Assembly: GCF_014334115.1 (NCBI RefSeq)
Contig: NZ_CP060494.1
Coordinates: 124,001-188,000, forward strand
Origin: Sphingosinithalassobacter sp. CS137
GTDB lineage: Bacteria > Pseudomonadota > Alphaproteobacteria > Sphingomonadales > Sphingomonadaceae
Length of the DNA stretch: 64,000 nt
Direction of reading: 5' to 3'
A program made the position numbers and the translations under genes. The notes beneath the pieces were generated by a model. It was not told the DNA's origin. It did not search any database and saw only the letters and a list, made by a program, of their open reading frames with translations. Below are positions 53,720 through 62,643 of this stretch, in pieces; the first letter of the stretch is position 1; every line of letters starts with the position of its first letter.

Positions 53720-55324
53720 ATGGGCGGCCTGTTCGCGCCCTTCTGGAACGGGAGTTACGCGCCACACGGCTATTGTCTGCTCTGGCAGCGCGAACTGGTG
53801 TGGACGCACGTCATCGCCGACGGCCTGACGGCAGCGGCCTATTTCTCGATTCCGCTCGCGATCATTGCGCTGGTGCGGCAGCGCCGGGACCTCGTCTTCG
53901 GCTGGGCCTTCTGGTGCTTTGCGATCTTCATTCTCGCGTGCGGCGTCACCCATCTGATGAGCATCTGGACGCTCTGGCAACCGGTCTATGGCCTTCAGGC
54001 GCTCGTCAAGGTGATCACCGCCGGGGCATCGGTCGCGACCGCAGCGCTGCTGTGGCCACTGCTTCCCCGAGCAGTCGCATTGCCGTCGCCAGACCGATTG
54101 CAAGCCGCCAATGCCGAGCTGGCGACGATGATCCGCGAGCGCGACACGGCGCTGGAGGAACTGCGCGCACAGATCGCCCAGCGCGAGCGCGTCGAGGCCG
54201 CATTGCTTCAGTCGCAGAAGCTGGAGGCCGTGGGCCAACTGACCGGCGGGATCGCGCATGATTTCAACAATCTGCTGCAGGCGGTCGCGGGCAATCTCGA
54301 ACTGATCGCGCGCAAGCCGGATGATTCCGATCGCGTCGTCCGCTGGGCCGGCGCCGCACTCGACGCCGTCGAGCGCGGGCGCGCGCTGAGCGGACAGCTG
54401 CTCGCATTCTCGCGCAAGCAGCGGCTCGAACTCGCGCCGGTACCGGTGCAGGAGCTGATCGGCGGGATGCGCGAGCTCGTCGCGCGTGCAGTGGCGCCGC
54501 TGTCGCAGGTCGAGATCGCGCCGATCGACCCGCTGCTTCGGGTGGAGGCCGATCCGTTGCAACTCGAGCTGGCGATCCTCAACCTGGCGTTCAACGCGCG
54601 CGATGCCATGGGCGACGGCGGTACATTGCGGATTTCCGCTACGAGCGAACGCGGTGTCGCGCCGGCGGGCCTTCCTTTGGGCGACTGGGCGGCGATCACG
54701 GTGAGCGACAGCGGGCACGGCATGACGCCTGACGTGCTCGCGCGCGCCACCGAGCCTTTCTTCACCACCAAGGAAGTCGGGCGGGGGACCGGCATGGGAC
54801 TCGCCATGGTGTTCGGCGTCGTGACTCAGTCCGGCGGGACGGTCCATATCGAATCGGCACCCGGCGAGGGAACGGCGGTGACGCTGTACCTGCGCCAAAG
54901 CACGAAGGCGCGCGGCCGGACGCGCACGCCGAAGGATGCCGAGGCGGTGCCGGTGAGCCTGACGGGTGCGACCATCGCGCTGGTCGATGATGATGCGCAG
55001 GTTCGCGCGACGCTCGCCGACATGCTGGAGACGGCGGGAGCGACCGTCGCGCAGGCGGGCGATGGGGCGAGCGCGCTCGAGATGGTCGCGGCGCGCCGGC
55101 CCGATGTGCTGATCGTCGACTTCGCCATGCCGGGCATGAGCGGAGCCGAGGTGGTACGGCGGATCCGCGAGCAGGATCGGACGCTGCCGATCGTGCTGGT
55201 GACCGGCTTCGCCGAGACCGCGGCAATCGATTCGCTCGACAACGGCCAACTGACCATCTTGCGCAAGCCATTCGAAACGCGTGACTTGCTGCGTCGCGTG
55301 CAGAGCCTGCTCGGAGACGACTGA
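53720..55324 (+). CDS. Hybrid histidine kinase with ethylene-receptor-like membrane domain
   Basis: The 534-residue protein has three membrane helices (about 33-52, 62-83 and 91-117), a coiled coil, a HisKA helix with His180 (GGIAHDFNNLL), an intact ATPase domain (NLAFNARDAM, SDSGHGM, GTGMGLAMVF) and a receiver with Asp467 (LIVDFAMPGMSG). The membrane domain carries Asp34, Tyr41, Pro45, Cys74 and His78 (IADGLTAAAYFSIP, LACGVTHLM). These match plant ETR1 Asp25, Tyr32, Pro36, Cys65 and His69 with identical spacing, and in ETR1 Cys65 and His69 hold the copper ion. Binding of ethylene or another small ligand through Cu(I) is inferred. There is no GAF domain. Confidence 0.88.
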   Translation: MGGLFAPFWNGSYAPHGYCLLWQRELVWTHVIADGLTAAAYFSIPLAIIALVRQRRDLVFGWAFWCFAIFILACGVTHLMSIWTLWQPVYGLQALVKVITAGASVATAALLWPLLPRAVALPSPDRLQAANAELATMIRERDTALEELRAQIAQRERVEAALLQSQKLEAVGQLTGGIAHDFNNLLQAVAGNLELIARKPDDSDRVVRWAGAALDAVERGRALSGQLLAFSRKQRLELAPVPVQELIGGMRELVARAVAPLSQVEIAPIDPLLRVEADPLQLELAILNLAFNARDAMGDGGTLRISATSERGVAPAGLPLGDWAAITVSDSGHGMTPDVLARATEPFFTTKEVGRGTGMGLAMVFGVVTQSGGTVHIESAPGEGTAVTLYLRQSTKARGRTRTPKDAEAVPVSLTGATIALVDDDAQVRATLADMLETAGATVAQAGDGASALEMVAARRPDVLIVDFAMPGMSGAEVVRRIREQDRTLPIVLVTGFAETAAIDSLDNGQLTILRKPFETRDLLRRVQSLLGDD

Positions 55325-55406
55325 CGCGGGCTCCGCTGCAAGGCGCGACAGCCGCGGCTTCCATGCTATGCAAGCCGCGAACGTCACAGCAGGAGCCTGG
55401 TGCAGC

Positions 55407-56540
55407 ATGATCGATTCGAAGCGGCCGCGCATGATCCCGTTCGCATCGCTCCTCCGCGTCGCTCTGGCGCTCCTGTTTCTCGTTGCTCCTCCGGCGCTTG
55501 CCCAGCAGCAGCAGCAGCCGCCGCGTGCCAGCCCGGCCGATGCGAACGGGATCAGCGTCGCGACGCGCCATGCGCCTCCCTTCGTGATCCGCGAAGCGGA
55601 CGGAAGCTACAGCGGCCTCGCGATCGATCTGTGGAGCGACGTCGCGGCCGATCTCGGCGTGCGCTACACGCTGGAGGAGACCGATCTCGACGGCATGGTC
55701 GATGGCGTTGCCGAGGGCCGCTACGCGCTCAGCGTCGGCGCCCTGACCGTGACGCCCAGCCGCGAGGAACAGGTGGATTTCAGCCACCCCTATCACACCA
55801 CCGGCTTCGGCATCGCCGTGGCGCAGGCGCCGCCCAGCTGGCTGCTGCTGCTGCGCAATTTCTTCAGCTGGGGATTTCTCCAGGCGGTGCTGGCGCTGAG
55901 CGCGCTGCTGCTGCTGGTGGGCGTGTGCTTCTGGCTTGCCGAGCGGCGCGACAATTCCGAGGAGTTCGGCGGCGGCCCGGCGAAGGGGATCGGCGCGGGC
56001 TTCTGGTTTTCCGCAGTGACGATGACCACCGTCGGCTATGGCGACAAGGCGCCGCGCACCCGGGCGGGCAAGGCCGTCGCGCTCGTCTGGATGTTCGCGG
56101 CGATCCTGATCATCTCGACCTTCACCGGGATGATCGCCTCCTCCCTGACCGAGGGGCGGCTGGCGGGCGGGATCCAGGGCCCCGAAGGGCTGACCAGCGC
56201 CGCGGTGGGATCGATCGAGGGATCGGCGGCGGACGAGTGGCTGCGCGAGAGCGGCATCGGCTTCTCGAGCTTTCCGAGCGTCGAGGCGGGGCTGGAGGCA
56301 GTGGCGGCGGGCGAGATCGACGCCTTCGTCTATGACCGGCCGCTGCTCACCTATCTGCTGAAAGGCGAGGCGGGCGACGCGCTGCGGCTGGTGCCGGGCA
56401 GCTTCGGCCGGCAGGATTATGGCTTCGCGCTGCCGCCGGAAAGCCCGATGCGCGAGCGGCTCAATCGCGCATTGCTCGAACGGATCGAAAGCCGCGCCTG
56501 GTCGAATCGGCTGACGCAGGTGCTGGGTCGCGACGACTGA
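55407..56540 (+). CDS. Glutamate-receptor-like (GluR0-type) ligand-gated potassium channel
   Basis: The 377-residue protein has a signal peptide ending near ALAQ (residue 32), then a ligand-binding S1 lobe (about 48-140, with the amino-acid-binding motif TPSREEQVDFSHPYH, Arg119). Membrane helices lie at about 155-177 and 221-245, enclosing a pore loop with the potassium filter TVGYGD (208-213), and the S2 lobe runs from 252 to 370. The S1-M1-P-M2-S2 order is that of cyanobacterial GluR0. The ligand is unknown, probably a periplasmic amino acid. The ATG at 55407 follows AGGAG at 11 bases; ATG 55431 is an alternative. Confidence 0.9.
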   Translation: MIDSKRPRMIPFASLLRVALALLFLVAPPALAQQQQQPPRASPADANGISVATRHAPPFVIREADGSYSGLAIDLWSDVAADLGVRYTLEETDLDGMVDGVAEGRYALSVGALTVTPSREEQVDFSHPYHTTGFGIAVAQAPPSWLLLLRNFFSWGFLQAVLALSALLLLVGVCFWLAERRDNSEEFGGGPAKGIGAGFWFSAVTMTTVGYGDKAPRTRAGKAVALVWMFAAILIISTFTGMIASSLTEGRLAGGIQGPEGLTSAAVGSIEGSAADEWLRESGIGFSSFPSVEAGLEAVAAGEIDAFVYDRPLLTYLLKGEAGDALRLVPGSFGRQDYGFALPPESPMRERLNRALLERIESRAWSNRLTQVLGRDD

Positions 56541-56937
56541 CGCTTGGCTTCGCAGTTTTCGCGCCTATTCATTCCGAACGTTGCGCACGCCCGAAACATC
56601 CTTGCGTCGGCGCGCGGCGATCAGCTCGACAGTTCAAAGAGCGTCCGCAAGCGGAGCAGCTGAAATCCTAATTTGCAAGGGTGCGGGGGAGTGAGGCGGA
56701 GGGATATGGGCCGAATGCGGACAGGCAGGTTTCGGGCAGCGAACCACAGGTGGCTGCCCTTCCTCGCTCCGCCGCCGCTAAGGCGGCTGCCGACCCGACC
56801 TCGTTCCGAGCTCGGCGCTTACACATCCGCTCACGCCAAGAACCGGTCATTCACATACAATCCAGAAGCCAGACGGCAGTGTGCTCCATTCCAGCCGTTC
56901 AGTATCGACCCCGGTCACTCCACAAGCTGCCGTACGT
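56541..56937. other. Gap of about 400 bases with no gene seen
   Basis: No convincing coding frame is visible on either strand. A small hairpin, GCCGCC-GCTAA-GGCGGC (56771-56787), stands about 150 bases beyond the end of the ATPase gene in its direction of transcription, without a T tract. Composition falls from GC-rich to mixed across the gap, marking the edge of the low-GC module. Confidence 0.6.
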
Positions 56938-59697
56938 TCAACGGCCCCTGCCGACGGCCTGCCGCATCAGCGTGACAACCTTCCGACGAGCGCCTCCTGA
57001 GTAGAACAGATTAAGTCCACTGCGATACAGCTCTGGAACGAAGAAGTCGTCACCATACCTAAAAAGAACGCCATTGTCCTCCAAAATTCTGACATCATCG
57101 CTGCCCAGCAATTCGTGCGCACGCTCGTATGACCAAGGTAGTTCTCGCTGATTGCCGACTAGACTCCCAATAGTTCGAAATATTCTCTTAAGATCTACAT
57201 TTTCTTCACCAGTTTCGAAAACACGCTCTTTGCTGCACGGCCCAATTGCATCGCGCATCGCCCGTGGACTTAAGAGCCTTTGATCGTGGTAGGCATCACT
57301 CGCCGTAGAAAGCGACGCGGACTCGGCGAGAAAGCGAACGAGATCTCGGGCTTTGATGCTTCGATTGAAATCCGACAGCGATGACATGGTCCATTCGAGC
57401 GACCTCGCCTCACGAGACGTGTTAGGCCCCATCTTCCAGCCCCATAATTCGACAAGGGCTTGACTACGCTGCTCTTCGTCCAGCGTTGTTAAGCTCTCGG
57501 GAGATACTGTCGGGGGTAAGCTGCCAGCTTGTTGTGCAACCCATAGCGCTAATGCCGACGCCTCGGCCCAGTTCCATCGGAGAGCAAAAGCTGAATACCG
57601 ATCAGCGAATTGCTTGAAGTTGTTGACCAGCGCGTATCGCGCCAAGTCCTCTCTAATAAATACGACACAGCCCACGTTCTTTGTTGGAAGCTGCGAAAGC
57701 CAATCAGGAACAAGTCGTAGCAGCGCCTCTACCGCTGCCTGCTCATGTTCACTGGTTCGTAACCTTGAGAACAGGGTCTCAATTCCGTCGAAAATACCGA
57801 CGGCCGCGTGACCCGGTTTGAGCGCTTCGGCAAATGGCTCGAATGCATTAGGTGTACCCGGCGTAAATCCAGCGCGCCACGCAATCATATCTAGCCAGAA
57901 TTGCCGCCAAGACACGGCACTGCTTGCATCTGGCCTTTGCAACTGCTGCTGAACAGCATCCGCGATTAGCTGATCGTTGAGGGGCTCTCCGCCCGTCAAC
58001 GCCTTTGCCGCTTCAGTTGTTACCCTACGTTCTGCCTCACGAGCATCGTGGTCCAGGTCCTGCGATGGAGTTACGGGTAGCACCAAGGCTTCTGTGGATT
58101 GTGTCTGCGTCGGATTCGCTACACCCAGCCTTTCAGAGAAGGTTCCCCACGTCTTAGATAGAGCTAGGGACATGAAGGTATATGACTTGCCCGACCCCTT
58201 TTCACCGATGACAGTAACCGTTGGAGGAGCGCTTTGATGGCGCTCGGCTAGGTTAACCAGGGAAGCTGTGGGATAGATGTCCACTTGCGGCTGGCTTTCG
58301 GCGAAAATGCTCTTTCGCGCGTATGCTGCAAGTCTCTCACGCCGCTGCTGCGCCTCTGTGTGAACCTCGTTCCGCTCAGGGTCAGACGGCGCGGAAAGCG
58401 GGACGAGTGATCCAAAAATTGAGTACATTTGATCGGGGAGGCTCGTTCGGGTCAACGCGCGCTGCGTTTCTCTCAAGTCTCGGGGTAGAATTGCCACCGC
58501 CGGCTCTGCATCCACAATAGAGGTCGTGATCGACGCCTCCTGGAACGGGTTCTCGGTTACGTCGGCGGGCTGTTCAGACGACTTTAATTGCTCCAAAAAT
58601 AGGCGGATCTCCTCCTCAAATACCGCCATCGCGTCCAACGCGCCCTCTTGTCCAAACCCACCATCCTTAAGTCCAGGAGGGCTTTGATTGATGATGACTG
58701 TCGGAAGACTCGCATCAAATTCTGCGGTCGACGCGGCTCGCCATCTGGAAGCCATCTCACGCATTCGATCCAGCAGCATGATGGTTCCATCAATGGCTTG
58801 GCCGTTCAATGTCGTTACGAGAGCGTGCTGAAGACGGGGATCAAGGAATAGGGATGCGACTAACTCAGAAAGACCGGCGCGAAGGTCGATGATGACGAGA
58901 TCGGCTCCAATTCTCTTCCCAAGGCGTGCAACAAGCGAGCCTACAAAGAAGGGAGATCGCTTTTCGGATAGGGTAAGAGCCTCTGGTGAGACGCTGGGAA
59001 GACCAAGATCGCGTGTGCAAGGTAGAACGACTAGGCCATCTATCTCTTGATCCGCGAGCCTACCAGCCACCGTTTCGATTGCGTCGTCGGCGTCGATCTC
59101 AGAAGATGTGAATGCGATTGCGAGTAAATCCGCAAATGCGATGCGTGGGCTCGGCATTGAATGTCTGAGGAGACTGGAAATTCCAGGAGCTTCGAAATCT
59201 GCGTCGATGAAAAGAACGCGACGGCGAACTTTTTGCACCGCCGCCGCCAAGGCGAGTGCAAGCGTGGTCCGCCCCATGCCACCTTTGAACGAATGAAAAG
59301 TAAGGACGGGCGGACAATCGCTAATCTCATCAGTCTCGGCGACTTCATACGGCGTGTTGTAAACAACTACGGACCCCGACGTGAGGGTTGGCCGGAGACG
59401 CAGGCGCAGCCCCGATATCCAATCCTCGCCAACCCTCTCGAACTCTATCGGAAGAAGGCGCGGCGAGGCGGAGCTTGCCGTCTCAAGCGCGATCGCAAGC
59501 TCATCCTCCAGAAAGCGTGGGCCGAACGTTTGCCGAAGCCACACCTTGACCGGCTCCATCGCCGCTTGAGGAAGTAGGGAGAGCGCTAGGCGAGATGGTA
59601 GCGGCTGTGCTCTGAGCACCTCCTTCGGAGCGGAGCGAACCGCGTCATTATCGCGCAGGCGATCGAGCACGTCGAGATAGGTGTAAAACTCTGCCAT
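56938..59697 (-). CDS. Double P-loop ATPase: ParA-like KGGMGR domain plus AAA domain
   Basis: The 919-residue protein has an N-terminal domain of about 125 residues, then a SIMIBI/ParA-like ATPase with deviant Walker A FHSFKGGMGRTT (residues 138-145), switch motif VLFIDADFEAPG and DLVIIDLRAGLSEL. After a linker comes a second ATPase with classical Walker A GEKGSGKSY (498-505), Walker B AVGIFDGIETLF (about 633-643) and a sensor strand CVVFIREDLARYAL. About 200 further residues have no known motif. The ParA part resembles the KGGVGR-variant ATPases found in bacterial conflict systems. The ATG at 59697 stands one base after the upstream gene's stop. GC content is clearly lower than the neighbourhood. 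Confidence 0.82.
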   Translation of the reverse strand: MAEFYTYLDVLDRLRDNDAVRSAPKEVLRAQPLPSRLALSLLPQAAMEPVKVWLRQTFGPRFLEDELAIALETASSASPRLLPIEFERVGEDWISGLRLRLRPTLTSGSVVVYNTPYEVAETDEISDCPPVLTFHSFKGGMGRTTLALALAAAVQKVRRRVLFIDADFEAPGISSLLRHSMPSPRIAFADLLAIAFTSSEIDADDAIETVAGRLADQEIDGLVVLPCTRDLGLPSVSPEALTLSEKRSPFFVGSLVARLGKRIGADLVIIDLRAGLSELVASLFLDPRLQHALVTTLNGQAIDGTIMLLDRMREMASRWRAASTAEFDASLPTVIINQSPPGLKDGGFGQEGALDAMAVFEEEIRLFLEQLKSSEQPADVTENPFQEASITTSIVDAEPAVAILPRDLRETQRALTRTSLPDQMYSIFGSLVPLSAPSDPERNEVHTEAQQRRERLAAYARKSIFAESQPQVDIYPTASLVNLAERHQSAPPTVTVIGEKGSGKSYTFMSLALSKTWGTFSERLGVANPTQTQSTEALVLPVTPSQDLDHDAREAERRVTTEAAKALTGGEPLNDQLIADAVQQQLQRPDASSAVSWRQFWLDMIAWRAGFTPGTPNAFEPFAEALKPGHAAVGIFDGIETLFSRLRTSEHEQAAVEALLRLVPDWLSQLPTKNVGCVVFIREDLARYALVNNFKQFADRYSAFALRWNWAEASALALWVAQQAGSLPPTVSPESLTTLDEEQRSQALVELWGWKMGPNTSREARSLEWTMSSLSDFNRSIKARDLVRFLAESASLSTASDAYHDQRLLSPRAMRDAIGPCSKERVFETGEENVDLKRIFRTIGSLVGNQRELPWSYERAHELLGSDDVRILEDNGVLFRYGDDFFVPELYRSGLNLFYSGGARRKVVTLMRQAVGRGR

Positions 59698-59698
59698 C

Positions 59699-60154
59699 TC
59701 AAATTCCCTGTGTCGCCATTCGCGTGTCAACCGCCTGCAATATGCGCTCCAGCCATTGCTCTACACTGCCCAAGTAGCCGTCAGCTACCTTGACACCATA
59801 GCGAGCAGCCTCGTGTAATTTATACGGTGGGAATGTGTCTCCATTAACTACGAACGAAGTAGGTGTGCTTCCAACATCAACGGGGAGGAGGCTGGCGGCA
59901 AGACAAAGTTGCTCAATGTCGTGCAGATCAATCTGACTCTTTGGCAGGCCCAAGCTGGCCACCAAGGCATTCTTCAGATCGCCGGTGCTTGGAAGCGACC
60001 CGGACATCATCACCAAATACTTCAAGCCGCACTCCGCGGCGTAGAAAAGCGAAACGAACCGGGAGCGTCTCGGCATGCCTGCGACGCTCGACGCGGAGCG
60101 ATGGCGCTGGAAGGCTCGCCTGATATCAACAGGATCAGAGGAGACTTGAGCCAT
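59699..60154 (-). CDS. Small HEPN-like helical protein paired with the double ATPase
   Basis: The 151-residue product (ATG 60154, GGAGG box six bases upstream; ATG 60160 is less likely) contains RRSRFVSLFYAAECGLKYLV near residues 30-50, typical of the first long helix of HEPN-fold proteins. A second helical part holds LHEAARYGVKVADGYLGSVE followed by QWLERILQAV. A clean RNase R-x4-6-H motif is not obvious, so it may be a non-catalytic HEPN-type partner or sensor. The stop lies one base before the ATPase start, so the two are translationally coupled. Homology is by eye and tentative. Confidence 0.62.
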   Translation of the reverse strand: MAQVSSDPVDIRRAFQRHRSASSVAGMPRRSRFVSLFYAAECGLKYLVMMSGSLPSTGDLKNALVASLGLPKSQIDLHDIEQLCLAASLLPVDVGSTPTSFVVNGDTFPPYKLHEAARYGVKVADGYLGSVEQWLERILQAVDTRMATQGI

Positions 60155-60582
60155 TCGCATCCTCCTCCGCCTTCGGCTCTCCGTTCGTCACCGCTTTGCC
60201 TCCTTCGTTAGTGCCGCGTTTTAGCAGGACTCATAGGCCAAGGCATTACGGCCGCGGAATGTTGAAGCAAGGCATAGATGGAGAGGGATTTGCCGCCCCC
60301 TGCGAGAGGCAGCTATGCAGGAGGCGCTTGCCGGAACCGGTCAAGTCGTTAATGGTCATTTGCTCATCTCTCGCCCCGGGTGCGATCAACCAGAATCATC
60401 CGGTTCTGGAGGAAGCCGTCGTTGGCGACTGCCGCCGAGAATGACGGGACTGTCCCAGATCCGGTCGCCCAAGCCGATCGGCAACGCCGTCCGCTCTCAG
60501 GCGATCGGCTAGCGACCTACAATGACCGATATTAGGGCGCAAAGCAGACGTCGCCGCCCGCGCACCCCGCACCCCCACCTCC
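60155..60582. other. Gap of about 430 bases with probable gene debris
   Basis: No intact gene is seen. On the minus strand a 34-codon fragment (about 60209-60312) reads LPLAGGGKSLSIYALLQHS between stops; it has a Walker-like GGGKS but is too short to name. The stretch near 60535-60575 looks like the decayed intergenic sequence often found in alphaproteobacteria. The gap would carry the promoter of the HEPN-ATPase pair. Confidence 0.5.
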
Positions 60583-62643
60583 CTATACCTCCGGCAGCGC
60601 GCTCCGCAGTTCGTCGATCCACGGCCTTGCCGTCCCGTCGGAAGGCGCGCGCCAGTCGCCGCGGGGGCTTAGTGCGCCGCCGGCCGAGACCTTTGGGCCG
60701 TTGGGGATGGCGGAGCGCTTGAACTGGCTCGTCTGGAAGAAGCGGATCAGGAAGATCTCGAGCCATTTGGCGATGGTGGCGAGATCATATTCGTTGCGGC
60801 CCGCCTCGGGGAAGTCGATCGGCCACAGCCCTTCCTTCGCGTCCCGCCACGCATGCCAGGCAAGGAAGGCGATCTTCGACGGGCGCATGCCGCGGCGCAC
60901 GACATAGTGGAGGAAGAAGTCGTGCAGCTCATAGGGGCCGATGCGATCCTGGGTGCTCTGCATGCCGCCCTCGGCATCGGCGGGGACGAGCTCGGGCGAA
61001 ATCTCGGTATCGAGGATCGCAGTGAGCACCGCATCGGTCTGTTCGTCAAACTGGTTTGTACTCACGCTCCAGCGGATCAGATACTGGATCAGCGTCTTGG
61101 GAACGCCGGTGTTGACCGCATAATGGCTCATCTGATCGCCGACGCCATAGGTGCACCAGCCGAGCGCCATTTCGGAAAGATCGCCGGTGCCGACGACGAA
61201 GCCCTGCCGCTGATTGGCGAGGCGGAAGAGATAATCGGTGCGCAGCCCCGCCTGCACATTTTCGAAAGTGATGTCGTACACCGGCTCGCCCTGCGCGAAG
61301 GGATGGCCCATGTCGGTCAGCATCTGCCGCGCGGCGGGGGTGATGTCGATTTCCTCGCCGGTGACGCCGAGCGTCTTCATCAGCGTCCAGGCGTTCGACC
61401 TGGTGGTGTCGCCGGTGGCGAAGCCGGGCAGGGTGAAGCCGAGAATGTCCGAGCGGGGGCGGCCGAGCCGGTCCATCGCCTTGGCGGCGACGATCAGCGC
61501 ATGCGTCGAATCGAGCCCGCCCGAGACGCCGATGACGAGATGCTTCGCGCCGACCGAGACGATGCGCTTGCGCAGCCCCTCGACCTGGATGTTGAAGGCT
61601 TCGTAGCAATCCTCCTCGAGCTTCGCCGGCGTGTTCGGGACGAAGGGAAAGCGGCGCACGGGGCGGCGCAGGCCGACATCGTCGAAGGCGGGCTCGTGGC
61701 GGAAGCCGATGCGCCGGAAGCGGGTTTCGGGATGGCCCGCGGCGACGGCGGCGTCGTTGAAAGTGGGAAAGCGCATCCGCTCGAGCCGCAGCCGCTCGAG
61801 ATCGATGTCGGCATAGACCGCCTCGGGCGCGAGATCGAAGCGCTGCGACCCGGCGAGGAATTCGCCGAGCTCGTAGATCAGCCCCTGACCGTCCCAGGCG
61901 AGATCGGTGGTGCTTTCGCCCGGCCCGGCGGCCGAATAGAGATAGGCCGAGACGGTGCGCGCCGATTGCGAGGCGCAGAGCAGCTGGCGCTCGCGGCTCT
62001 TGCCGATCACGATGTTCGAGGCGGAGAGATTGCACAGCACCAGCGCACCGGCGAGCGCGGCGAGCGAGGAGGGCGGCGTGGGCGCCCAGAAATCCTCGCA
62101 GATCTCCATATGGAAGACGAAATCCTCCAGATCCTGCGCGGCGAAGACCAGATCGGTGCCGAAGGGAGCGGTCTGCCCCGCGACCTCGATCTCGAGACCG
62201 GCGAGGCCGATGCCCGAGGCGAACCAGCGCTTTTCGTAATATTCGCGGTAATTGGGCAGGAACTGCTTGGGGACGACGCCGAGGATGCGGCCGCGGTGGA
62301 TCGCGAGCGCGCAATTGTAGAGCCGCCCGTTGCGGCGCAGCGCCGCGCCGACGCAGAGCACGGGGCGCAGATCGGCGCTCGCCTCGACCAGCCGGGCGAT
62401 GCCGGCCTCGGTCGCGTCGATCAGCGCGTCCTGGAGATGGAGATCGTCGATCGCATAGGCGCTGATGTTGAGCTCGGGAAAGAGCAGCAGGTCGGCGCCA
62501 TGGGCATCGCCGTGGCGGGCGGCCTCGATCGCGGCATCGGTGTTGGCGGCGGGATCGCCGACGGTCGCCAGCGGCGTGCACACGCCGGTGCGGATCATCC
62601 CCTGGCGGTGAAGCGAATGGAAGGAGTGGGGTGGTTTAGTCAC
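60583..62643 (-). CDS. nadE: Glutamine-dependent NAD+ synthetase
   Basis: NadE amidates nicotinate adenine dinucleotide to NAD+. The 686-residue form joins an N-terminal nitrilase-type glutaminase (LLLFPELNISAYAI, VVPKQFLPNYREYYEKRW, FHMEICEDFWAPTPP) to a C-terminal synthetase with the ATP loop VIGVSGGLDSTHALIV and GTGDLSEMALGWCTYGVGDQ. This long layout is shared with actinobacterial enzymes. The GTG at 62643 overlaps the stop of the upstream PncC/CinA gene by four bases. Confidence 0.95.
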   Translation of the reverse strand: MTKPPHSFHSLHRQGMIRTGVCTPLATVGDPAANTDAAIEAARHGDAHGADLLLFPELNISAYAIDDLHLQDALIDATEAGIARLVEASADLRPVLCVGAALRRNGRLYNCALAIHRGRILGVVPKQFLPNYREYYEKRWFASGIGLAGLEIEVAGQTAPFGTDLVFAAQDLEDFVFHMEICEDFWAPTPPSSLAALAGALVLCNLSASNIVIGKSRERQLLCASQSARTVSAYLYSAAGPGESTTDLAWDGQGLIYELGEFLAGSQRFDLAPEAVYADIDLERLRLERMRFPTFNDAAVAAGHPETRFRRIGFRHEPAFDDVGLRRPVRRFPFVPNTPAKLEEDCYEAFNIQVEGLRKRIVSVGAKHLVIGVSGGLDSTHALIVAAKAMDRLGRPRSDILGFTLPGFATGDTTRSNAWTLMKTLGVTGEEIDITPAARQMLTDMGHPFAQGEPVYDITFENVQAGLRTDYLFRLANQRQGFVVGTGDLSEMALGWCTYGVGDQMSHYAVNTGVPKTLIQYLIRWSVSTNQFDEQTDAVLTAILDTEISPELVPADAEGGMQSTQDRIGPYELHDFFLHYVVRRGMRPSKIAFLAWHAWRDAKEGLWPIDFPEAGRNEYDLATIAKWLEIFLIRFFQTSQFKRSAIPNGPKVSAGGALSPRGDWRAPSDGTARPWIDELRSALPEV

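Follow-up and report, generated by a model that had tools for sequence, protein, structure and literature searches.

The window, a stretch of 64,000 nucleotides of Sphingosinithalassobacter sp. CS137 (contig NZ_CP060494.1, positions 124,001 to 188,000), contains a real, conserved and sporadically spread module of two minus-strand genes which specify a HEPN-fold protein of 151 amino acids (P0002) and a double ATPase of 919 amino acids (P0001). On balance the module probably serves in biological conflict, most plausibly against phages, as a defence switch, and represents a fused variant of the phage-defence candidate PDC-M28. A conflict role had been suggested in an earlier sequence-only reading of this DNA and is upheld here as probable. 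The two genes are coupled through a TGA-G-ATG junction with a single base between them, and the motifs which that reading listed for the large protein (KGGMGRTT, GEKGSGKS, FDGIETLF and FIREDL) are all present. The guanine plus cytosine (GC) content was likewise correctly described as lower than that of the surroundings, being 0.555 across 56938–60154 vs 0.666 for the remaining window; among 3217-base segments taken at 100-base steps, the six with the lowest GC all start at approximately 56700–57200, that is, at the module.

The double ATPase

The predicted structure of P0001 has a pLDDT (predicted local distance difference test) of 85.2 and a pTM (predicted template modelling score) of 0.61. 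The protein possesses a SIMIBI domain of the MinD/ParA fold with a KGGxGR P-loop, followed by an AAA half resembling STAND and NACHT NTPases, in agreement with the previous description of a ParA-type ATPase with a separate AAA domain. Arg143 is invariant in the alignment (A2; 50 of the 58 sequences listed by the protein search), and the KGGxGK motif with both of its lysines is absent. This count of 50/50 derives from a search made without any P-loop pattern; the genome scan for relatives used S[FS]KGG[VM]GRT among its patterns, so that P-loop counts in the 80 loci considered below are partly pre-selected. P0001 scores 136.3 bits against NCBIfam AAA_KGGVGR (NF047398; cut-off 90), a domain model whose name gives no function. 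Residues 635–843 resemble ATPase_Sll1717 (NF047389) at 42.4 bits, under the cut-off of 75. Pfam matches in the AAA half of the 50 proteins were to AAA_16 (19), NACHT (11), nSTAND1 (6), nSTAND5 (3) and nSTAND3 (1); in the same scan P0001 itself matched none of these at E 0.001.

The HEPN-fold protein

Structure comparison revealed a HEPN fold in P0002, as had been proposed from its helical core, and the structural neighbours include Csm6 and MNT-HEPN toxin chains. Conserved residues in the family are E41, K45, H78, H114, R118 and Y119. Alignment A3 comprises P0002 and 72 of 75 HEPN frames, with L014, L031 and L059 left out. The sole Pfam HEPN model to give a match was PF05168 (2/73 proteins). 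No match to HEPN of the MAE_18760 family was found in this Pfam scan of 73 proteins, the existence of a Pfam model for that family being unconfirmed.

A different HEPN-like protein sharing the E..LK, H and RY residues is encoded in L187 (1459–1905, minus strand) and L188 (1345–1767, minus strand). In both of these loci, which belong to two genera, a small frame of approximately 135–145 amino acids follows and overlaps the gene, the two possibly forming another small two-gene module.

Relatives and gene pairing

Protein searches with the large protein listed 58 sequences (itself among them) and those with the small protein 24, and a scan of species genomes revealed at least 528 stretches encoding a relative of the large protein; the module is, therefore, more than a chance arrangement. 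By record name the relatives are from Proteobacteria, Cyanobacteria, Actinomycetota, Acidobacteria, Chloroflexi, Bacteroidota, a Tumebacillus, methanogenic archaea and others. One of them, L009, is named Arthrobacter and may be misnamed. The flanking-frame coordinates of L011 and L014, found in metagenome-assembled genomes named Devosia and Opitutus, are nearly identical, and one of these two bins is therefore probably contaminated.

Using the best 80 of the at least 528 relatives, and counting by coordinates, the HEPN gene lies directly upstream of the ATPase gene in 75 loci. The five exceptions comprise two with HEPN remnants recognised by eye (L016, L026), one with a stop in the gene (L071), one at a cut contig (L044) and one with no HEPN gene (L029). 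Both frames are intact in 71 loci, 28 of which show a four-base overlap when the ATPase frame is taken to begin at the start codon closest to the HEPN stop, a choice that biases the count towards small gaps. The HEPN and ATPase distance matrices correlate (r 0.908, n 70, omitting L019 as a likely duplicate; the best of 999 permutations gave 0.163). The reverse search of 398 genomes of the phylum revealed a HEPN match in 14, strong in 12 (the genome of the window among them); the ATPase gene adjoins in 12/12 strong matches and in neither of the two weak ones, the profile (A3) leaning towards linked proteins since it was made from these and at most 10 candidates were scored per genome. The co-occurrence across genomes on which the sequence-only reading had staked its proposal was thus found. 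In P0003 of S. fredii (1029 amino acids) the HEPN frame continues into the ATPase frame, through a natural fusion or a sequencing error, and L008 has two separate genes.

Relationship to PDC-M28

The module had been called undescribed, which no longer holds since PADLOC-DB 2.0.0 already contains its parts under PDC-M28, a phage-defence candidate with three genes, A, B and C; a literature search found no paper on it. The PDC-M28B model (PDLC04559) recognises P0001 with an E-value of 4.7e-16 (best stretch 66 residues), positions 126–191 of 438 aligning in register with residues 127–192, and matches 50/50 of the ATPases. The PDC-M28C model (PDLC04561) recognises P0001 more weakly (E-value 3.6e-08, 30.7 bits), positions 289–386 of 480 aligning with residues 735–834 at an offset of approximately 446, and matches 46/50. 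B and C placed end to end would equal the length of the 919 amino acid protein, given the in-register B and the offset of C, the matched stretches being short. The candidate and the module appear to share a HEPN-like A, a KGGVGR ATPase B and an AAA protein C in the same order; they differ in that B and C of the window form one protein, that the C match is weak and that the HEPN protein is barely recognised by the A models.

With the PDC-M28C model, matches were obtained in 23 of 299 genomes of the phylum but in none of 14 control genomes. Among 16 regions around the better matches, 15 were split and one (L174) encoded a fused protein of 915 amino acids. B directly precedes C in 14 of the 15 split loci (L162 being the exception), and an A-like gene stands before B/C in eight of them as well as in L174. 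Profile comparison of the P0002 family with nine A proteins from split loci gave 86.6% over 47 columns, and the two groups share their gene order and common E-C-x-x-K, H and R-Y residues.

Four split loci from three genomes of a single genus (L167–L170) encode C proteins with an extension of more than 800 residues. This extension consists of Metallophos (calcineurin-like phosphoesterase) and NACHT domains in all three proteins scanned (L168, L169 and L170). The L168 protein contains, in addition, a long stretch of ARYWARDLAR-like repeats. NACHT proteins are a published defence class (PMC12169576), and the likeness to bNACHT and bacterial proteins related to NLRs (nucleotide-binding leucine-rich repeat proteins) lies in the STAND/NACHT resemblance of the AAA half in some relatives and in these Metallophos-NACHT fusions. 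The window protein, unlike the extended ones, is without Metallophos and without a second NACHT domain.

Distribution and genomic neighbourhood

The module lies between a channel gene (55281–56540) and nadE (60583–62643), the names being those of the sequence-only reading and judged from the look of the sequences. G011, a genome assigned to the same genus, has its kinase, channel and nadE genes arranged as in the window, with approximately 590 bases separating the last two and no module; identities to the window proteins are 63%, 74% and 85%, respectively, over the parts covered. Of 40 relatives, G011 alone has a strong channel-gene match, and the module-free site is accordingly known from one genome. 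The position between these two genes stands as first described, and the insertion claimed there is backed by this single comparison, for which loss in G011 rather than gain in the genome of the window is a possible cause. No full-length copy of the large protein was found in 60 relatives (36 of the same genus), 24 of which match over at most approximately 150 residues around the ParA-type P-loop. This looks like sporadic, horizontal acquisition. The single clear relative on a viral contig (L098 7181–10376, IMG/VR) has both genes side by side.

Flanking genes were compared for 26 of the 80 loci, selected among those whose contigs were long enough for a control, taking four proteins at each (104) and 104 control proteins, four per stretch, from positions elsewhere on the same contigs chosen by the analyst; L014 and the control L103 were dropped as likely duplicates. 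Among the PADLOC families listed, PglW, PglX, type IIG, DRT UG5 and type IV restriction occur only in the case flanks, and the control flanks contain PD-T4-6, mad6, C3a189 and MkoA. Scanning 20 of the 104 flanking proteins one by one located PglW beside L056 and DRT UG5 beside L053; a mad3/AriA match beside L067 is weak (best stretch approximately 90 residues).

The start of the small gene at 60154 fits a purine-rich GGAGGAGG at 60161–60168, and another in-frame ATG is present at 60160. Upstream, some 400 bases (60180–60580) without an evident gene could contain a remnant of the carrier of the module. The coordinates of all features are collected in Table 1.

Table 1. Features of the module and of the extended split relatives; coordinates refer to the window unless a locus is named.
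Feature	Coordinates	Strand	Remarks
Small gene (P0002)	59699..60154	-	151 amino acids, reading frame; HEPN fold, PDC-M28A-like
Large gene (P0001)	56938..59697	-	919 amino acids from ATG; double ATPase whose two halves resemble PDC-M28B and PDC-M28C
SIMIBI (MinD/ParA/Soj-fold) domain	58396..59322	-	residues 126-434
Variant P-loop KGGMGRT	59266..59286	-	residues 138-144; Arg143 in place of second Lys of KGGxGK
AAA half with STAND/NACHT resemblance	56941..58359	-	residues 447-919
Walker A GEKGSGKS	58183..58206	-	residues 498-505; G498, K500, G501, G503, K504 invariant in 50 aligned
Walker B FDGIE	57778..57792	-	residues 636-640; E640 invariant; D637, G638 in at least 90% of 50
FIREDL motif	57643..57660	-	residues 680-685; F680, R682, D684 invariant in 50 aligned
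Whole channel-nadE interval containing the module	56541..60582	.	G011 has a different spacer of approximately 590 bases there
Extended PDC-M28C protein	L167 6606-11978		
Extended PDC-M28C protein	L168 2477-7801		
Extended PDC-M28C protein	L169 6156-10142		
Extended PDC-M28C protein	L170 6515-11590		

Possible function

Several observations weigh against an anti-phage system related to PDC-M28. No single stretch of the weak PDC-M28C match to P0001 passes 0.001, and the PDC-M28C genome search did not find P0001 in G000 at E 0.001. Matches of the small proteins to the PDC-M28A models are weak (P0002 with an E-value of 0.047; 4/73 and 3/73 for the two models at E 0.01). No module match was found in 72,556 plasmid records (E up to 1e-20) or in 50,697 phage records (E up to 1e-10), and no published phage challenge of the module was found. 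The case flanks also hold matches to PD-T4-6, mad6 and MkoA, occurring in the PglW protein beside L056, and two that are GlgB-like; the flank sample is small, 25/30 and 25/29 families were compared, and a single protein may account for both PglX and IIG, for which reasons the defence-gene flanks are only suggestive. The module of the window itself, flanked by the channel gene and nadE, is not part of a defence island.

That reading had also left the HEPN protein as an effector or an adaptor. An RNase effector released by the ATPase on infection would accord with the fold and its Csm6 and toxin neighbours, with the tight pairing, and with the presence of an R-X4-6-H pair somewhere in 52/76 HEPN sequences, among them R12 or R13 with H18 in helix 1 (19 and 11 of 76); R24-X5-H30 occurs, from the alignment, in 6/9 split A proteins. 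Against it, no such pair is common to more than 19 of the 76 sequences, and H30 is Gln in three of the nine split proteins. Both candidate sites, moreover, differ from what we take to be the location of the motif in HEPN RNases. The classical effector is thereby weakened, though some members do have a pair, and we regard it as unlikely; an unusual HEPN active site is possible given the six conserved residues of the family.

The gene arrangement, with the small gene first and often overlapping the large one, would also suit a toxin-antitoxin pair in which the ATPase holds a HEPN toxin in check. Such a dyad, a HEPN (MAE_18760) gene adjoining one for a ParA/Soj-like ATPase, was predicted to form a toxin-antitoxin pair by Anantharaman et al. 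2013 (PMC3710099), whose passages on it propose a HEPN RNase toxin and, in contrast to the arrangement found here, name no fused AAA half. However, L015, L020 and L027 (and L014, the likely duplicate of L011) retain a HEPN frame although that of the ATPase is broken, and an intact ATPase frame stands without a HEPN frame in L016, L029 and L071 (L044 ends at the contig edge). Assembly errors might account for some of these broken or absent frames, but with no shared RNase motif either, this explanation is distinctly improbable. A MinD/ParA-like role of the ATPase in partition, positioning or housekeeping, as the fold of the first domain might suggest, is very improbable in view of the sporadic presence, the low GC, the G011 site without the module, the P-loop Arg, the STAND-like half and the HEPN partner.

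In the favoured reading of a fused PDC-M28 variant acting as a defence switch, the ATPase would rest until it senses an infection signal, then bind ATP and assemble, by analogy with NLR-like switches. The folds and motifs, the pairing with its correlated divergence, the sporadic spread and the likeness of the ATPase to PDC-M28B/C are observed, whereas infection as the trigger, oligomerisation, poor hydrolysis and the part played by each component are inferences. The SIMIBI domain would bind ATP and dimerise, and probably hydrolyse poorly since the P-loop Lys is an invariant Arg; the STAND/NACHT-like half would be the active switch. On the signal the ATPase would change state or oligomerise and act through its near-constant HEPN partner. 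The latter may be an adaptor, or an effector with another conserved site (E41, K45, H78, H114, R118 and Y119), either being more likely than a classical RNase because no RNase motif is family-wide. More tentatively, and with less than even confidence, the relatives may together make up an NLR-like class of immune systems with a wide distribution. Their ATPase would be the fusion of a STAND-like ATPase with a MinD/ParA-type clamp impaired in hydrolysis, it would signal by way of an RNase-dead HEPN adaptor, and some variants would have gained a phosphoesterase-NACHT effector.

We know of no characterised defence system with a two-NTPase (nucleoside triphosphatase) switch of such design. If defensive, the module would be a new and widely spread immune switch, combining two unlike NTPases with a HEPN fold that lacks a family-wide RNase motif, and would connect the candidate PDC-M28 with the NLR-like proteins of bacteria. 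One could then test why Arg replaces the P-loop Lys in every relative aligned, and what purpose HEPN folds serve when the RNase motif is missing.
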